Below, piece after piece: positions 17,403 through 64,000 of a DNA stretch of 64,000 nt (positions are counted from its first letter, which is position 1; each line of letters starts with the position of its first letter). A model generated the notes under the pieces. That model had not been told where the DNA came from, made no database searches, and saw only the letters and a list, made by a program, of their open reading frames with translations. Source of the DNA: Rhodoluna limnophila (GTDB lineage Bacteria; Actinomycetota; Actinomycetes; Actinomycetales; Microbacteriaceae); assembly GCF_005845365.1 (NCBI RefSeq), contig NZ_CP040509.1, forward strand, positions 496,001 through 560,000. Reading direction: 5' to 3'. A program made the position numbers and the translations under genes.

Positions 17403-17441
17403 TTAGTTAAGCATCGCGTCGATTTCGAAGGGGGAGCGCAC

Positions 17442-56331: not shown

Positions 56332-56943
56332 TTATTTCAAAACGTAAACGATAAGGAACAGGCCGATCCAGACCACGTCAACGAAGTGCCAGTAGTAAGA
56401 AACCACGATGGCACTGGTCGCCTCGTAGTGTCCGTACTTCTTGGCTGCGTAGGTGCGGCCGATGATTAGCAGAAACGCGACTAGACCGCCGGTTACGTGA
56501 AGTGCGTGGAATCCGGTGGTGATGTAGAAGGCGCTGCCGTAAGAGTTTGAGTTGAGAGCGACACCCTCGGAGATCAAGGTGGCGTACTCCCAGACCTGAC
56601 CGGCCACGAAGATTGCGCCCAAGAAGTAGCTGAGCATGAACCACTCGGCCACACCCCACTTGGCTGGTGACCAACCGGTGGCACGTGGCTGAAGGCGCTC
56701 AGCAGCAAAAACACCGAACTGAGCGGTGAAAGATGAGGCGACCAAGATGATGGTGTTTACCAGAGCGAACGGGACGTTCAGGATCGCTGTGTCGTGAGCC
56801 CAGATTTCAGGCGAGTTTGCGCGAAGGCTGAAGTACATCGCGAAAAGGCCAGCAAAGAACATCACCTCGCTTCCAAGCCAAACGATTGTTCCAACCGAGG
56901 TTGAACTTGGGCGGTTAATGACAGGTGCGCTTAAGGTCGTCAT
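56332..56943 (-). CDS. ctaE: cytochrome aa3 oxidase subunit III
   Basis: This 203-residue polytopic protein has about five helices with the family segments [30 protein letters not shown] and [15 protein letters not shown]. It stabilises subunit I and its proton uptake. It is the first gene of ctaE-qcrC-qcrA-qcrB; qcrC follows after 15 bases. The ATG has TAGGAT six bases upstream, suggesting a leaderless transcript. Confidence 0.96.
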
Positions 56944-57026: not shown

Positions 57027-58088
57027 ATGACCTCAGCATTGACCTGGCCTTCGATTTTGACCAAACTGATCGACCGAACCGATCTAACTCGAGCAGAATC
57101 CAGCTGGGTCATGGGTCAATTTCTTGGGGGAGAGACACCTGAACCAGTGATGGCCGGATTCATGACGGCCATGCGCGCCAAGGGAGAAACCGTGGCTGAA
57201 CTTTCTGGTCTGGTCGACGCCATGCTGCTCAATTCGGTCAAGCTCGATACTGGTTCTGACGCAGTGGATATTGTTGGAACCGGGGGAGACCTCATCGGGA
57301 CCGTGAACATTTCCAGCATGGCTTCGATTGTGGTTGCCAGTGCCGGAATTCCGGTCCTCAAGCACGGTTCACGTTCTGCATCAGGCAAGACCGGCTCTTC
57401 TGAGATGCTCGAGGCATTGGGTATCCGGTTAGACCAAACTCCCGAACAGGTTGCAGAGGTTTTCAGAAAAGTGGGCATCACTTTCTTCTTTGCTCCGGTT
57501 TTTCACCCAGCCATGCGCTTCGTTGGTCCGGTGCGCAAGGCGCTTGGCGTGCCAACCACATTCAACTTTTTAGGTCCGCTGGCCAACCCAGTCCAACCAA
57601 TTGCAACTTCACTCGGTGTTTCAAATGCCACCATGGCGCCTCTTTTGGCGCAGGAGTTAGCAGCGCGCGGCCGTACCGGCTTGGTATTTAGAGGCAACGA
57701 TGGCCTCGATGAACTCTCAACCGTTGCTGACAGCCAAATTTGGCAGGTAGTCGGGGGAGAGGTGCAGCAATTTGGGCTTCAACCGACAAAACTTGGCTTG
57801 GCCAAGGCTAATGTCGATTCGCTACTTGGCGGGGATGCCGTTCAGAACGCTGCCGTTGCTCGTGACCTGTTTGCCGGGGAATCCAGTGGAAACTTGGGTG
57901 CGATTAAGGACATCGTTTTGCTTAACGCAGCCGGTGGCGTGGTTGCCTACGAATTGGCCAAAGATCCATCCCGAAGCGATGTTTCATTGGAGCTTCGATT
58001 TGAAGACGCACTCCAGAAAGTGACCACAGCCCTAGAAAGCGGCGCAGCGGCTGAAAAAGTTGCTGATTGGGTCGCTGCAACAGCGTAG
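57027..58088 (+). CDS. trpD: anthranilate phosphoribosyltransferase
   Basis: This 353-residue enzyme joins anthranilate to PRPP in tryptophan synthesis. Motifs are DIVGTGGD (PRPP site) with the following TVNISSMASIV, KHGSRSASGKTGSSE, and the HPAMRFVGPVRKALGVPTTFNFLGPLANP block. I chose ATG 57027; the frame is open upstream to 56925 but that part overlaps the divergent ctaE promoter. Other trp genes are not in the window. It is the last gene before the dif site and matches the mycobacterial trpD-ctaE neighbourhood. Confidence 0.94.
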   Translation: MTSALTWPSILTKLIDRTDLTRAESSWVMGQFLGGETPEPVMAGFMTAMRAKGETVAELSGLVDAMLLNSVKLDTGSDAVDIVGTGGDLIGTVNISSMASIVVASAGIPVLKHGSRSASGKTGSSEMLEALGIRLDQTPEQVAEVFRKVGITFFFAPVFHPAMRFVGPVRKALGVPTTFNFLGPLANPVQPIATSLGVSNATMAPLLAQELAARGRTGLVFRGNDGLDELSTVADSQIWQVVGGEVQQFGLQPTKLGLAKANVDSLLGGDAVQNAAVARDLFAGESSGNLGAIKDIVLLNAAGGVVAYELAKDPSRSDVSLELRFEDALQKVTTALESGAAAEKVADWVAATA

Positions 58089-58137: not shown

Positions 58138-58165
58138 ACTTGACATAATGTACATTATCGGCGTT
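58138..58165 (-). other. dif site (XerC/XerD chromosome dimer resolution)
   Basis: This 28-base site matches the published actinobacterial dif consensus at about 26 positions when read on the minus strand; only the two outermost bases of the XerC side differ. The XerD-type arm is ACTTGACATAA (58138-58148 on +), the 6-base centre TGTACA (58149-58154) and the XerC-type arm TTATCGGCGTT (58155-58165). The core ATAATGTACATTAT (58145-58158) is a perfect palindrome. It lies in the trpD-Nudix gap. The consensus was recalled, not searched. Confidence 0.88.
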
Positions 58166-58176
58166 AGTGGTTGAGC

Positions 58177-58632
58177 TCAAAAGTGGTTGCGCAAAAAGGA
58201 AACCAACCCGTGTGGTCCAACTAACTCGCCAGAGGCAATTAGTTCGTCAACGCTCCACCATCGGTGTTCTAAGACATCTCGGCGCTCGTCATCAGTCCAG
58301 CCGGTTGTCTCAAGTTCAAAGTTCGAAACCCGATGGCTATAGAAATAATCCACATACGTGTGCTGATTTCCGTCAGCCCAGGTCCAGGTTCCCGATGTTT
58401 GCCAAATTTGATCTCCGAGGTCTTCTGGAGCCAGCTTGATGCCAGTTTCTTCGCTAAGTTCACGCACGGCGGCCTCTAATGGCGTCTCACCAAAGTCAAT
58501 CCCGCCACCCGGAGTTATCCATCTAGGTGGCAAACCGACCTCAGGATCAAAATGGGTGAGCAACAGGAAGAATCGATTTTCATCGTCCACAAGAATTACA
58601 CGGGCCGTTTCACGGTGTTGTCCGGGTCTCAT
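58177..58632 (-). CDS. Nudix hydrolase
   Basis: This 151-residue protein contains a complete Nudix box (GGGIDFGETPLEAAVRELSEETG) with the metal-binding REL-EE residues. The family hydrolyses nucleoside diphosphates linked to another moiety; the N-terminal RVILVDDENRFFLLLTHFDPEVGLPP and the C-terminal WWSVDEL segment do not fix the substrate. On the minus strand CAAACT lies six bases before the ATG, a near match to the leaderless pattern here. It is the first gene to the right of dif. Confidence 0.9.
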   Translation of the reverse strand: MRPGQHRETARVILVDDENRFFLLLTHFDPEVGLPPRWITPGGGIDFGETPLEAAVRELSEETGIKLAPEDLGDQIWQTSGTWTWADGNQHTYVDYFYSHRVSNFELETTGWTDDERRDVLEHRWWSVDELIASGELVGPHGLVSFLRNHF

Positions 58633-59898: not shown

Positions 59899-60587
59899 AA
59901 ACCCCACTTGGTGACCAGCCATAGTGCCTCGAGCACTATGGCTGTTGTCATTTTTGAGGAACCCAGTGTGCGTTCTACAAATGTGATTGGAACTTCGACT
60001 ACTTCTCCCCCGGCGCGCTTTGACCTTAGGGCCATTTCAACTTGAAAAGCGTATCCGCGTGCGGCAATGCCTTCCAGGTTCAGCCCCTTCAGGAATTCAA
60101 CATTAAATGCGCGGAATCCTGCGGTCATGTCCTTGATGCCGGTTCTTAGCATCAGGTTTGCATAGAGGTTGCCGATTTTAGAAATAGCTTTTCGGTGTGC
60201 TGGCCAGTTGACCACCGCTCCCCCAGGAATCCAACGAGAGCCGATTACTAGGTCGGCTGTTTGGGCTTTCTCCAAAATTTTCGGCAAATCAATTGCCCGA
60301 TGACTACCATCAGCGTCCATCTCGATGACAATCTCATAGCCTCTATCAATCGCCAAGCCGAATCCCGAAAGGTAAGCGGCGCCCAAACCGCCTTTTTCAG
60401 AGCGGTGCAGCACAGAAATCTGTGGATCTTTGGCGGCAAGGCGATCAGCCAGGTGTCCGGTGCCATCGGGGCTATTGTCATCGATGATTAGCAGGTCAAC
60501 CTGCGGGCAAACTTCGCGAAGCTCGGCAACCGAGTGTGCCAAGCTTTCGATTTCATTGAAGGTTGGCATCAAAACCAAAGTTCTCAA
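59883..60587 (-). CDS. ppm1: polyprenol monophosphomannose synthase
   Basis: This 234-residue GT2 glycosyltransferase transfers mannose from GDP-mannose to polyprenyl phosphate, the lipid donor for lipoglycans and protein O-mannosylation. Visible are MPTFNEIESL, LIIDDNSPDGTG, EMDADGSH (metal site) and the GSRWIPGG stretch. It has no C-terminal membrane helices, so it is the soluble catalytic domain. The TTG start overlaps the lnt stop by four bases. The Lnt-Ppm order equals the fused Ppm1 of M. tuberculosis, here as two genes. Its 3' end overlaps rbpA. Confidence 0.92.
   Translation of the reverse strand: MRTLVLMPTFNEIESLAHSVAELREVCPQVDLLIIDDNSPDGTGHLADRLAAKDPQISVLHRSEKGGLGAAYLSGFGLAIDRGYEIVIEMDADGSHRAIDLPKILEKAQTADLVIGSRWIPGGAVVNWPAHRKAISKIGNLYANLMLRTGIKDMTAGFRAFNVEFLKGLNLEGIAARGYAFQVEMALRSKRAGGEVVEVPITFVERTLGSSKMTTAIVLEALWLVTKWGFYRSA
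59919..59941. repeat. 9-bp perfect inverted repeat after rbpA, inside the ppm1 3' end
   Basis: CCATAGTGC (59919-59927) and GCACTATGG (59933-59941) form a stem over a 5-base loop, 20 bases after the rbpA stop. A T-rich stretch follows about 10 bases later. It may terminate rbpA while lying within ppm1 coding sequence. Confidence 0.5.
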
Positions 60588-62152
60588 GCTAACTCCTTTG
60601 GTTTTCTAGTGCGGTAACGGTGAGCGATAGCCAAGACGGTCAGCAGAGATGCCAAAAGATTGATTGCCAGGTCTACTGCTCCCCCAACAGCGACCCCAGG
60701 TGTAAGGCTGGTCCGAAGAGGAACTTCGGTAACCATCGCGCCGGCGGTGAAAGTTTCTAGTTGGTCGAGGGTTTGCCCATCCGGTCCATAAACGGCAGTG
60801 ACGCCAACGGTCGACACGTTTACAACTGCCCGACCGGTTTCGATAGCCCTGAGTTTGGCAAATGCTGCCTGCTGAAAAGTCTCGTCACTGAAACCAAAGT
60901 CTGCGTTGTTGGTCTGGGAAAGTATTACCTGGGCCCCTTGATTGACTAGGTTGCGTCCGATGTCATCAATCGCAATCTCAAAGCAAATCAGGGTGCCAAC
61001 TGGCCCCTGAGCCAACTCGTAGATGCCGTCACGCTCGCCAAACGAGTATCCGCGAGAAATCAACCCAATTAGATCCGGGGCCAATTGGTACCAGAAGTCA
61101 CGGTCAGGCACATACTCGGCAAACGGAACGGGGCGCTGTTTATCGTAGTAGTCCACCGGTCCGGTGAGTGGCTCCCAAAGGATGGAACTGTTGAAGAGCT
61201 TCTCACCGCGCTCCGTTATGGTTCCAAAAACTAGAGGAACACCTAGTTCCTCATCAACAAGATGGCTAATCTGCTGACTTGCCGTGACATCTCTGAATGG
61301 GCTCAGATCTGAAGCGTTCTCTGGCCAAACCACTAGGTCCAGCTCATTGAATCGAGGGTGCTCCTTCAAAAGCTCAGTTGCATCGAGATGGTTGTTGAGG
61401 ATAGTCCCCCGCTCAGTGTTGGCAAACAGACCAGCTTTGGCATTTCCCTGCACACTTCCCACCACAAGGGTCCCGTTTTCAGGTTCGGTCGGCAACAAAA
61501 TGGCCAGTGGTAGCGCCAGTACTAAAAGTGAGGCAGCTGCAGGTGTAACCCAACTGAACCGCACTCGGCCTTTAAAGTTTGTGGCGACAAATACAGCCAA
61601 TGCAGCCCCAACCAACGCAACGAGAAATGTCAGCCACCCCAAGCCGCCGACATAAACCCACTTAGAAAGAATTGACTCCGATTGAGTTTGTGCCAGTCGA
61701 CTCCAAGGAAAGCCTCCGTAGGGCAGGCTGATAGCCACCCACTCTCGGGCAGTCCAGACCAGGGCCAGTGCCAAGGCGGTGAGAATAGGCTTCCAGGCAG
61801 ATGCCGATAGGGTCTCGTCAAGCCAACGCCACACCAACGCCAGCACTGCCAGACCGCCCGCAAAAATCGCTGCCTCTAGAACTGAAAGCGCCAGCCATGG
61901 TACCGGACCTAGATATAGGCTCAGCCACTCGATTTGGCTCAGGTAATAGGTCAATCCTCCGATGAAACCGATACCAAGCGCTGCCCTGAAGCGTAAGTTG
62001 TGAACGGACAGTACGAGTAGGGCAACCGATGCAAAAATCAGTGGCCAGATGCCCTCCCTCGGCATTGCCAGGCTGGACAGCAGACCGCCCACGAGGGCAG
62101 CAAGCACGCGCCAAACCCGAGCTAGGCGATACAAGATGTGCTTAGGGGCCAT
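60584..62152 (-). CDS. lnt: apolipoprotein N-acyltransferase
   Basis: This 522-residue membrane enzyme adds a third acyl chain to the N-terminal Cys of lipoproteins. About six N-terminal membrane helices are followed by a nitrilase-fold domain with the catalytic Glu278 (VWPENAS), Lys338 (YDKQRPVPFAEYVP) and Cys390 (ICFE), and a final membrane helix near 495-515. With lspA at 35140 it shows that lipoproteins are triacylated here. It starts two bases after the helicase stop, and ppm1 overlaps its stop. Confidence 0.93.
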   Translation of the reverse strand: MAPKHILYRLARVWRVLAALVGGLLSSLAMPREGIWPLIFASVALLVLSVHNLRFRAALGIGFIGGLTYYLSQIEWLSLYLGPVPWLALSVLEAAIFAGGLAVLALVWRWLDETLSASAWKPILTALALALVWTAREWVAISLPYGGFPWSRLAQTQSESILSKWVYVGGLGWLTFLVALVGAALAVFVATNFKGRVRFSWVTPAAASLLVLALPLAILLPTEPENGTLVVGSVQGNAKAGLFANTERGTILNNHLDATELLKEHPRFNELDLVVWPENASDLSPFRDVTASQQISHLVDEELGVPLVFGTITERGEKLFNSSILWEPLTGPVDYYDKQRPVPFAEYVPDRDFWYQLAPDLIGLISRGYSFGERDGIYELAQGPVGTLICFEIAIDDIGRNLVNQGAQVILSQTNNADFGFSDETFQQAAFAKLRAIETGRAVVNVSTVGVTAVYGPDGQTLDQLETFTAGAMVTEVPLRTSLTPGVAVGGAVDLAINLLASLLTVLAIAHRYRTRKPKELA

Positions 62153-62154
62153 TG

Positions 62155-64000
62155 TTATCCGTAGTAGGAATAGGCGACGATGCCGCGTTTGACTTTAGTG
62201 ACAGCAAGTTTTGCTGTTTCCGCAAGACCTGAATCTGCGGTTTGGGCAATTTGATCGAGCAGGTCAATGATTTGCTTGGTCCAACGGATAAAGTCACCGG
62301 CCAGCAAGTCAGCGCTGTCTAGCACCGTATCCAGGCGTGCGCCGCTTGCCCATCGATGGATTGGCAACGCCAGGCTTAGGTCCAACGGTGGCGTTTGGCG
62401 CAACTTGTGGTGGCGAGATAGTTCCTCGAGTTCGTGCCAAATATCCTGCGTAGTTTCAATTACCTCAGCAAAATTTCCCTTTGGAACCCTAGGTTCCCAC
62501 TCTTCATCTCGTCTGGCCTCATAGACCAGAGATGCTGCCACGGCGGCCAGTGACGGTGCATCCAAGTTCTTCCAAACACCTTCGCGCAGACACTCTGAAA
62601 TCAGCAGGTCGCGCTCGCCGTAGATGCGGGCCAAGGTTCGACCAGCGTCCAGGACGTCGTAATCTCCTTCTTGGTCAGGAGCGATGTAATTTAGGTCCGC
62701 CAGCATTCCGCAGATGCGGTCGAAGGTTTTCGCAACCTGATTGGTGCGCCCCTCGATCTGGTTGAGGATACCCTCCAGCTCACGCTGCAGTTTGAACCAA
62801 CGCTCGCCCCACCTGGCGTGGGCTTCGCGATCCTGACAACTGTGACAGGCGTGAGATCGCATGTCGCGCTTCAGCTGATTGAGGCGCTGTTCTTGAAGGT
62901 GGCGACCTTTGCTCTGGCGAATGTCTTTGCCTCGATCTGCGCGAACTCGGCTGGCCGCCAAAGCGCGCTCTAGGTCGCTGATTTCGCGTCGAATAGTGGC
63001 GTACTCAACGAAATCGCCCTTGTGGCACTCCATTGCCTTGGCATAACCATCCAGAGAAACCTGCTTTTCGCGGATTCCTCTTGCCAAACCAACCACCGAG
63101 CGGTCAGCTTGAAATTGGGCGAAAGAGGTTTCGAGCACTTCTCTTGCTCGCTCGCGACCAAATGCCTCAATCAGGTTTACAGCCATGTTGTAGGTAGGTC
63201 GGAATGGGCTCACCAACGGATAGGTGCGCTTGCTGGCAAGACCCGCAACGTTGTTTGGGTCCATGTTCGCACTCCACTGAATGACCGAATGTCCCTGAGT
63301 GTCGATACCTCGACGACCAGCGCGACCGGTCAATTGGGTGTACTCCCCCGGTGTGATTTGGACTCGGCCCTCGCCGTTGAATTTATCCAGGCGCTCAAGA
63401 ACCACGGTTCGAGCCGGCATGTTTATGCCCAGTGCCAAGGTCTCAGTCGCAAAAACCACCTTGACTAACTTGCGTAGAAAGAGTTCTTCGACAACCTCTT
63501 TGAACGCCGGCAACATACCTGCGTGGTGCGCGGCGACGCCCCGCTCCAATCCGCTAAGCCACTCAAAGTAACCAAGGGTAGCGAGGTCCTCATCGGCAAT
63601 GTTGTAGCACTTTTCTTCTACTACCCGGCGGATTTCTTGCTTTTCTTCAGTTGTCGTTAGGCGAATCGAGCTGCTTTGGCAAGCCTTCACCGCAGCCTCA
63701 CAGCCAACTCGGGAGAAGATAAAGAAGATCGCCGGTAGTAGCTCTGCCTCGTCAAGAATATCGACTATTTCAGGCTTCGAAATTCTAGGAATTCGTGCTT
63801 GCTGGGCGCGGGCTTCGTGGTACGAGACTTTCTTGCCTCGCTGAGGTCGGTTTATCGGCTGCCGCATCTTTGAGGCATGCATTTGAGCTAGTTCTGGGTT
63901 GACTCGTACGTCTTTACCCTGATCATCGAACAACTCGATGAGTTCGTCGCCAAAGAGTACGTGCTGGTTGAGTGGGACCGGTCGGATTTCAGAAACGATA
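62155..64000 (-). CDS. helY: DEAD/DEAH-box RNA helicase of the HelY/Mtr4 type, 5'-partial
   Basis: The gene runs off the right edge; about 615 C-terminal residues are present and the frame is open to base 64000. Visible are the RPVPLNQHV segment and the superfamily 2 motifs of the second RecA domain (AIFFIFSRVGCE, VAAHHAGMLP, VVFATETLALGINMPARTVV, QLTGRAGRRGID). A long charged insertion and a Cys-rich stretch (CHSCQDREAHARW) are followed by a C-terminal DSHCT-like helical domain. This is the Ski2/Mtr4-like helicase HelY (Rv2092c). The Walker A and DEVH region lies outside the window. A TTG at 63933 is not the true start. Confidence 0.9.
   Translation of the reverse strand, partial: IVSEIRPVPLNQHVLFGDELIELFDDQGKDVRVNPELAQMHASKMRQPINRPQRGKKVSYHEARAQQARIPRISKPEIVDILDEAELLPAIFFIFSRVGCEAAVKACQSSSIRLTTTEEKQEIRRVVEEKCYNIADEDLATLGYFEWLSGLERGVAAHHAGMLPAFKEVVEELFLRKLVKVVFATETLALGINMPARTVVLERLDKFNGEGRVQITPGEYTQLTGRAGRRGIDTQGHSVIQWSANMDPNNVAGLASKRTYPLVSPFRPTYNMAVNLIEAFGRERAREVLETSFAQFQADRSVVGLARGIREKQVSLDGYAKAMECHKGDFVEYATIRREISDLERALAASRVRADRGKDIRQSKGRHLQEQRLNQLKRDMRSHACHSCQDREAHARWGERWFKLQRELEGILNQIEGRTNQVAKTFDRICGMLADLNYIAPDQEGDYDVLDAGRTLARIYGERDLLISECLREGVWKNLDAPSLAAVAASLVYEARRDEEWEPRVPKGNFAEVIETTQDIWHELEELSRHHKLRQTPPLDLSLALPIHRWASGARLDTVLDSADLLAGDFIRWTKQIIDLLDQIAQTADSGLAETAKLAVTKVKRGIVAYSYYG

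Follow-up and report, generated by a model that had tools for sequence, protein, structure and literature searches.

The dif site is the place where bacteria separate joined chromosomes. Among the closest described systems, which are cited throughout from excerpts of the respective papers, the dif of Frankia alni and other actinobacteria is a 28-bp sequence with an 11-6-11 layout that occurs once per chromosome and works with XerCD (PMC3025954); its length, layout and copy number are shared by the site reported below. KOPS, which in E. coli and V. cholerae read GGGNAGGG, are G-rich and polar, converge on dif and are densest in its vicinity (PMC5357621, PMC13342612). In three Corynebacterium genomes, the octamers (T/C)GGGGGAG and G(A/T/C)GGGGGA were described, with reference to earlier work, as architecture imparting sequences (PMC3022926, PMC3219685, PMC3350403); they were plotted there as a leading/lagging strand bias, with dif lying opposite the origin.

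With regard to the relation between dif and the end of replication, Kono et al. doubted that termination occurs at dif, both from simulation (PMC3317982) and from dif positions (PMC3025954), and across 65 bacteria, skew shift and dif were on average 0.39% of the genome length apart (PMC3317982). Marker frequency places dif off the terminus in several replicons, P. aminophilus and S. meliloti among others (PMC13342612), and in V. cholerae strains with added origins the forks met about halfway, with no fork trap (PMC6549158). Here, we describe a chromosome for which the joint best explanation, to which we assign a probability of roughly 0.7, would be a dif site with its guide motifs and a replication end about 145 kb away from them.

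The dif site and its neighborhood

The window, i.e., the whole stretch of 64,000 bases that was analyzed, covers positions 496001–560000 of C1, the single contig (1,398,704 bases) of this genome (G000). On its minus strand, at window positions 58138–58165 (~554 kb of C1), it contains the 28-mer AACGCCGATAATGTACATTATGTCAAGT, which has the 11-6-11 layout reported in the first-pass annotation. A left arm, AACGCCGATAA (58155–58165), a 6-bp central region, TGTACA (58149–58154), and a right arm, TTATGTCAAGT (58138–58148), follow one another on that strand, and by their positions the arms would be those of XerC and XerD, respectively, an assignment for which we presume an analogy with E. coli dif. 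The core palindrome that had been claimed, ATAATGTACATTAT, was indeed perfect, and the two full arms were identical at only 5 of 11 positions. Recounting the agreement with TTSRCCGATAATVNACATTATGTCAAGT, which we take to be the actinobacterial dif consensus, returned 26 of 28 positions, the figure first estimated. The same degree of identity (26/28) was found with the F. alni dif sequence printed in the excerpted text of PMC3025954.

The location of the site in the gap between trpD and a Nudix gene was likewise borne out, since it follows the trpD stop codon by 49 bp, and the Nudix gene, running convergently, ends 11 bp from it. The product of trpD (57027–58088, plus strand), anthranilate phosphoribosyltransferase, comprises 353 aa from its ATG and scored over the TIGR01245 cut-off; the listed ORF containing the gene begins farther upstream, at 56925. 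The convergent gene (58177–58632, minus strand) was assigned to a Nudix-type hydrolase from weak Nudix-family matches that were below the cut-offs.

When the whole genome (1 contig, 1,398,704 bp) was scanned with up to 3 mismatches, one match was found for the dif pattern, in agreement with the single copy expected beforehand and not with the several equally good copies that had been named as counter-evidence. The pattern read backward gave no match in the same genome-wide scan, and none of 100 window shuffles contained a match at up to 3 mismatches. No repeats of at least 12 bp were found in the 401 bp around the site.

When as many as 2 mismatches to the consensus core were tolerated, a dif match was recovered in 33 of 36 genus members (G000 counted) and in 9 of 23 order-level relatives, i.e., in 42 of the 59 genomes searched, nearly all of which held one match. 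In G021, the same match was present twice, at equal offsets in two contigs, and G058 had two that differed from each other. The genus genomes in which no core match was found were G001, G026 and G035, which are 91%, 70% and 85% complete, respectively. In all 23 genus loci compared (own included; these are part of the 33 matching genomes, with neighbors searched at E up to 1e-5), dif was flanked by trpD and the Nudix gene, one to each side, and neither gene was seen beside dif in 7 order-level loci or in 12 loci of other named genera. On a wider scale, 84 of 396 genomes across the phylum had a match with up to 3 mismatches, never with more than one match per genome, and a looser core matched in 239 of 295 class members. 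For class, family and phylum, the loci retrieved numbered at most 30 per search. The exact 28-mer occurred in 12 genome-contig stretches, from Amycolatopsis, Arthrobacter, Phytoactinopolyspora and Actinoalloteichus. None of the genomes of family f21 listed in the phylum and class searches (~6–11 Mb) matched the dif core; these may, as we would guess, have linear chromosomes.

Three tyrosine recombinases are encoded in the genome. The one at C1:488 kb was narrowly over the XerD cut-off (331.2 vs. 329.6), while the one at 874 kb had XerC as its best family, yet scored below the corresponding cut-off (297.1 vs. 335.15). FtsK is encoded at 446 kb, with a gamma domain scoring 80.9 bits (cut-off, 30.6). 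The presence of XerD and of this gamma domain is a further trait in common with actinobacterial dif systems. The gamma helix VGFAKAGRLMDL was common to the nine actinomycete genomes read (9/9), in contrast to IGYNRAAR in the solved chains 2iut and 2ius, presumably the FtsK proteins of P. aeruginosa and E. coli; we take the residues that are changed to be in contact with DNA. In the proposed mechanism, XerC and XerD would bind dif and resolve dimers once FtsK has joined the two copies at the septum, with XerCD cleavage presumably taking place at the site. The third recombinase (L005:1438–2691, C1 ~59 kb, 417 aa), far below both the XerC and XerD cut-offs, is perhaps the integrase of a mobile element.

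A polar motif converging on dif

A gene-strand-stratified scan of a 1.0-Mb sample of the own genome placed CGGGGGAG at rank 1 of 32,968 octamers, with all 42 sampled copies oriented toward dif. Of 85 sampled GGGGGAG copies, 82 were oriented in the same manner, the polarity switching between −397 and +1,861 bp of dif. The three exceptions were all among the 7 intergenic copies, such that genic copies pointed toward dif without exception (78/78; 63 sense and 15 antisense). Within the window, this applied to 12 of 12 copies: the three closest ones to the left of dif (57126, 57282 and 57753; 57126–57759) and those farther left at 17430, 31042, 35446, 47998 and 52761 are on the plus strand, and the four on the right side (60005, 60218, 60679 and 63343; 60005–63349) are on the minus strand. 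Motif density was highest near dif, at 4.50 copies per 10 kb for distances of up to 10 kb, and fell to 0.56 at 250–400 kb and to 0.18–0.32 past 400 kb (0.18 at 400–560 kb).

A similar orientation was observed in relatives. Orientation toward dif was found for 29 of 31 copies in G006 and 24 of 24 in G017, both of the same genus, and for 140 of 142 and 113 of 118 copies in the family outgroups G335 and G285, respectively. It was also found for 15 of 15 copies in the 7 order-level loci, for 40 of 41 in the 12 named dif loci, and for 78 of 79 in 29 loci from six families, a set that overlaps with the G335 and G285 stretches. The 3-kb loci of the genus gave 48 of 48, although these copies are not independent because many of them occupy homologous places.

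One-base variants of the word were mostly non-polar in G000, AGGGGAG still being largely polar (44/51). Among 11 control words in the six-family loci, AGGGGAG (28/29), GGGGGAC (20/20) and GGAGGAG (18/21) were polar as well, and the other eight ranged from 7/16 to 12/16 toward dif; nine control words in the set of order-level, named and genus loci ranged from 2/26 to 12/23. The proteobacterial KOPS GGGNAGGG was rejected as a guide motif here, with just 20 of 29 copies oriented toward dif.

GGGGGAG was initially a candidate for a new motif, which we dropped, as it is the core of the octamers printed for Corynebacterium. As in the excerpts on that genus, the core comes with a strand bias and a switch at dif; what differs from the plots shown there is that polarity here follows dif within a zone (C1:554–699 kb) that has the skew of the other arm, where 26 of 26 copies pointed toward dif although the skew is of the right-arm type. 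It resembles the E. coli and V. cholerae KOPS in the properties listed above, but differs from them in the word itself and in the FtsK gamma helix of its host. Taken from sequence, a role of GGGGGAG in guiding FtsK appears probable, and FtsK would then be led to dif by motifs converging from either side.

These data also bear on whether the 28-mer might resemble dif by chance, be the remnant of a former site, or serve a mobile element for attachment instead of being a working dif. The recombinase at 59 kb, far under the XerC and XerD cut-offs, would suit such a view, as would three class members (G616, G643 and G675) with two, two and three dif-core matches, respectively, which may reflect elements that carry or use dif. 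Against it stand the lack of a second genomic copy and of any match in the shuffles, the genomic place conserved in the genus, the flip of GGGGGAG polarity within ~2.3 kb that include the site, and the lack of a repeat of at least 12 bp in the surrounding 401 bp, all of which make it highly improbable. We are all but certain that the 28-mer is the dif of this chromosome, and it is very probably a working dif with converging FtsK guide sequences.

Position of dif, strand skew and gene orientation

dnaA is located at C1:164–1510, and four exact parS cores, searched with a core sequence that we assume to be correct, lie beside it at 1,390–1,396 kb; on these grounds, the origin was set to 0 and its antipode to 699,352. 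dif thus lies 39.6% of the way around the circle from dnaA and misses the antipode by 146 kb (10.4% of the genome length), and the skew turns elsewhere, both in contrast to actinobacterial dif. In a non-random set of 16 single-contig chromosomes, the short arm measured 39.6 to 49.9%, with the three members of this genus at the bottom (39.6, 39.6 and 40.9%); G335 and G127 had values of 43.0 and 42.5%, respectively. For this set, G409, G095 and G397, which consist of several contigs, were dropped from one group of 15, and only G006, G017 and G046 were kept from another group of 15.

The first-pass annotation had taken the site to mark the replication terminus. This is supported by the orientation of genes and of GGGGGAG, which turn at dif, but not well by its position, which is not opposite dnaA, or by the strand-corrected skew, which turns ~150 kb away. 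Raw GC skew, whose extreme had been proposed as a check, mixes with gene orientation, and this serves as a warning, since its turning point is thereby blurred too much for a choice between dif and the antipode: the best turn was at 640 kb (range 585–705 kb), with dif and the antipode 3.4 and 2.1 log-likelihood units worse, respectively. A turn far from the site, which had been named as evidence against the claim, was largely what the strand-corrected keto skew yielded (705 kb vs. 554 kb for dif).

Because gene orientation by itself creates skew, synonymous-site skews were compared with gene strand fitted separately, on the basis of 548 genes between 180 and 1,100 kb (sample of 850,000 to 1,000,000 genome bases; genes were ORF-based, with no trained gene finder). 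The keto (G+T) skew at fourfold sites turned at 705 kb, 77.8 log-likelihood units over the no-turn model, and the antipode (699 kb) was 3.5 and dif 47.2 units worse than this best position. A turn at 705 kb was also obtained for the AT skew (antipode 5.5, dif 36.1 worse) and for twofold pyrimidine sites (0.9 and 10.7), and the strand-corrected GC skew turned at 685 kb (0.4 and 7.4). Twofold purine sites turned at 605 kb, favoring neither place (4.6 and 5.4). Taken as single-strand sets, plus genes turned at 705 kb and minus genes at 690 kb. A 20-kb block bootstrap left 0.25% of turns under 620 kb, and in it the 554–699 kb zone differed from the left arm (CI −0.106 to −0.071), with no difference from the right arm (CI −0.018 to 0.026). 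No skew step was present at dif, and intergenic skew was too sparse to choose between dif and the antipode. GC-only skew was discarded as a guide, being weak and having as its best whole-circle model a local outlier at 135–150 kb.

Around the origin, the skew was flat for more than 100 kb on either side of dnaA, near-flat stretches extending from C1 ~1,260 kb through 0 to ~130 kb and, in G006, over C1:1–170 kb. The best two-switch keto model placed the origin switch at 1,290 kb and was 15.6 units better than dnaA combined with the antipode, which counts against a replication axis running from dnaA to its antipode, although dnaA with dif was 37.7 units worse. On account of this flat skew near dnaA, we weighed a true origin at ~1,250 kb, antipodal to dif, and rejected it in view of the four parS cores by dnaA.

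The synonymous-site skews would be accounted for most simply if two free-running forks met at the antipode of dnaA, near C1:699–705 kb, in which case the 554–699 kb zone would be copied rightward, away from dif. A meeting at the antipode also fits, by analogy, species without a fork trap, and the 6-kb agreement between skew turn and antipode could in part be luck. As in P. aminophilus, S. meliloti and V. cholerae (in the excerpts cited above), dif and the meeting point of the forks need not coincide; the P. aminophilus and S. meliloti cases rest on marker frequency, whereas the evidence here is that of sequence. Overall, the data lean toward a termination of replication away from dif.

Gene orientation turned at 545–550 kb, i.e., at dif, and did so at dif in G017 and G006 as well. 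Of the 233 genes between 180 kb and dif, 184 were on the plus strand, compared with 24 of 109 in the 554–699 kb zone and 70 of 206 from there to 1,100 kb; most genes in the zone would therefore be head-on to a rightward fork, which speaks against such a fork, and they face dif, as do all sampled guide motifs in the zone. The minus-strand genes of the zone, named from a reading of the translations in two 10-kb stretches, include gap-pgk-sod-whiA-rapZ-uvrC-uvrA as well as pyr and aro genes.

If replication instead ended at dif, with the 705-kb skew turn arising secondarily from gene content, codon usage or an old rearrangement, these housekeeping operons would become co-directional with replication. 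The turn of gene orientation at dif in G000, G017 and G006, the compatible raw GC skew (dif 3.4 units below best) and the twofold purine sites at 605 kb are also in line with such an end, as is the mean distance of 0.39% between skew shift and dif in the excerpted account of 65 bacteria (PMC3317982), obtained by another skew measure, compared with which a turn at 705 kb would put the distance here at ~10.8%. However, separate turns of plus and minus genes at 705 and 690 kb are not expected from an effect of transcription or codon choice, the AT, keto and twofold pyrimidine skews concur, the skew has no step at dif and turns 6 kb from the dnaA antipode, and G006 leans as G000 does. We thus regard an end of replication at dif as rather unlikely.

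Two further features of the chromosome were observed. In the six stretches searched, a 16S-23S-5S rRNA operon was found on the plus strand (L087:9616–10000 and L088:1–4832; C1 ~474.6–479.8 kb, outside the window), at a distance of ~75–80 kb from dif and well away from the origin. In L042 (C1:1155001–1165000), a minus-strand frame was open throughout the 10-kb stretch (9,999 bp), so that it would be part of a very large gene, with 3,300 codons as a minimum.

The skew in relatives was analyzed as well. G017, with a turn at 660 kb, its antipode at 669 kb and dif at 531 kb, is not independent of G000 because the two are ~95% identical where aligned. G006 is ~73% identical to G000 where aligned and largely its mirror image except near the origin, the origin region being inverted relative to the remaining map. 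Its keto skew turned at 720 kb (antipode at 715 kb; dif at 846 kb, 11.7 units worse), whereas the AT turn was at 790 kb, with dif 9.6 and the antipode 3.3 units worse, and the GC turn at 505 kb, with dif 4.3 and the antipode 3.3 units worse. Gene orientation in G006 turned at 850 kb. With more DNA, the whole-circle keto model of G006 was best at 120 and 705–720 kb, dnaA plus antipode being 7.4 and dnaA plus dif 12.9 units worse; for AT, dif plus its own antipode was 7.0 and dnaA plus antipode 9.5 units worse. By its keto skew, G006 leans to a turn away from dif, like G000, an agreement that is just partly independent because gene content is common to both; its AT circle model and its GC turn at 505 kb speak against a terminus at the antipode. 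In the outgroup G335, the turn at 1,400 kb fell between antipode (1,272 kb) and dif (1,546 kb) and does not discriminate. G285 has dif and antipode at almost the same place, and its keto turn was 71–82 kb from both (400 kb of 3,371,690 bases sampled), a fair gauge of the error of the method at that sampling depth; its AT skew was uninformative.

A proposed separation of dif from the replication axis

It is also conceivable that the offset is transient, in that a change in arm length or origin moved the meeting place of the forks and the synonymous sites followed, with dif, motifs and gene orientation marking an older terminus. The flat skew around the origin suggests a past change there, G000 and G006 differ by an inversion of the map relative to dnaA, and dif lies nearer to the antipode in family members with larger genomes (49.7, 49.9 and 43.0%). 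Conversely, the offset is about equal in G000 (39.6%) and G006 (40.9%) and therefore appears old, given their nucleotide identity of ~73%, and the inversion between their maps, being almost symmetric, would not account for an offset, for which reason an origin-spanning inversion was rejected as its source. We give a transient offset somewhat less than even odds; it is a cause for our main reading, in which dif and its motifs lie ~145 kb from the end of replication, and not a mechanism contrary to it.

In E. coli with engineered replichore asymmetry, a displaced polarity junction was harmful, according to the excerpted text of PMC2585057; the junction here is likewise off the replication midpoint, but naturally and, apparently, lastingly so. 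Among the open-licence papers searched, we found no printed account of such an offset between dif and terminus in an actinomycete, and a natural separation of 130–146 kb between the dif and replication axes, as suggested by three genomes from a single genus, may be new. dif itself is routine, yet easily missed by annotation. Where dif is at the antipode, replication, gene orientation and FtsK guidance are indistinguishable as setters of terminus architecture; here, their signals separate by ~145 kb, which is the useful part of the finding.

More tentatively, and on balance doubtfully, the chromosome of this genus may have two axes, ~10% of its length apart, one defined by FtsK and dif and the other by dnaA and its antipode. 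If this were true, the FtsK/dif axis would hold gene orientation and guide motifs, and the replication axis would set mutation skew. A zone of ~145 kb, with ~80% of its coding bases head-on, would have been kept since before the split of G000 and G006, and segregation directed by dif, rather than the direction of replication, would maintain gene polarity near the terminus.
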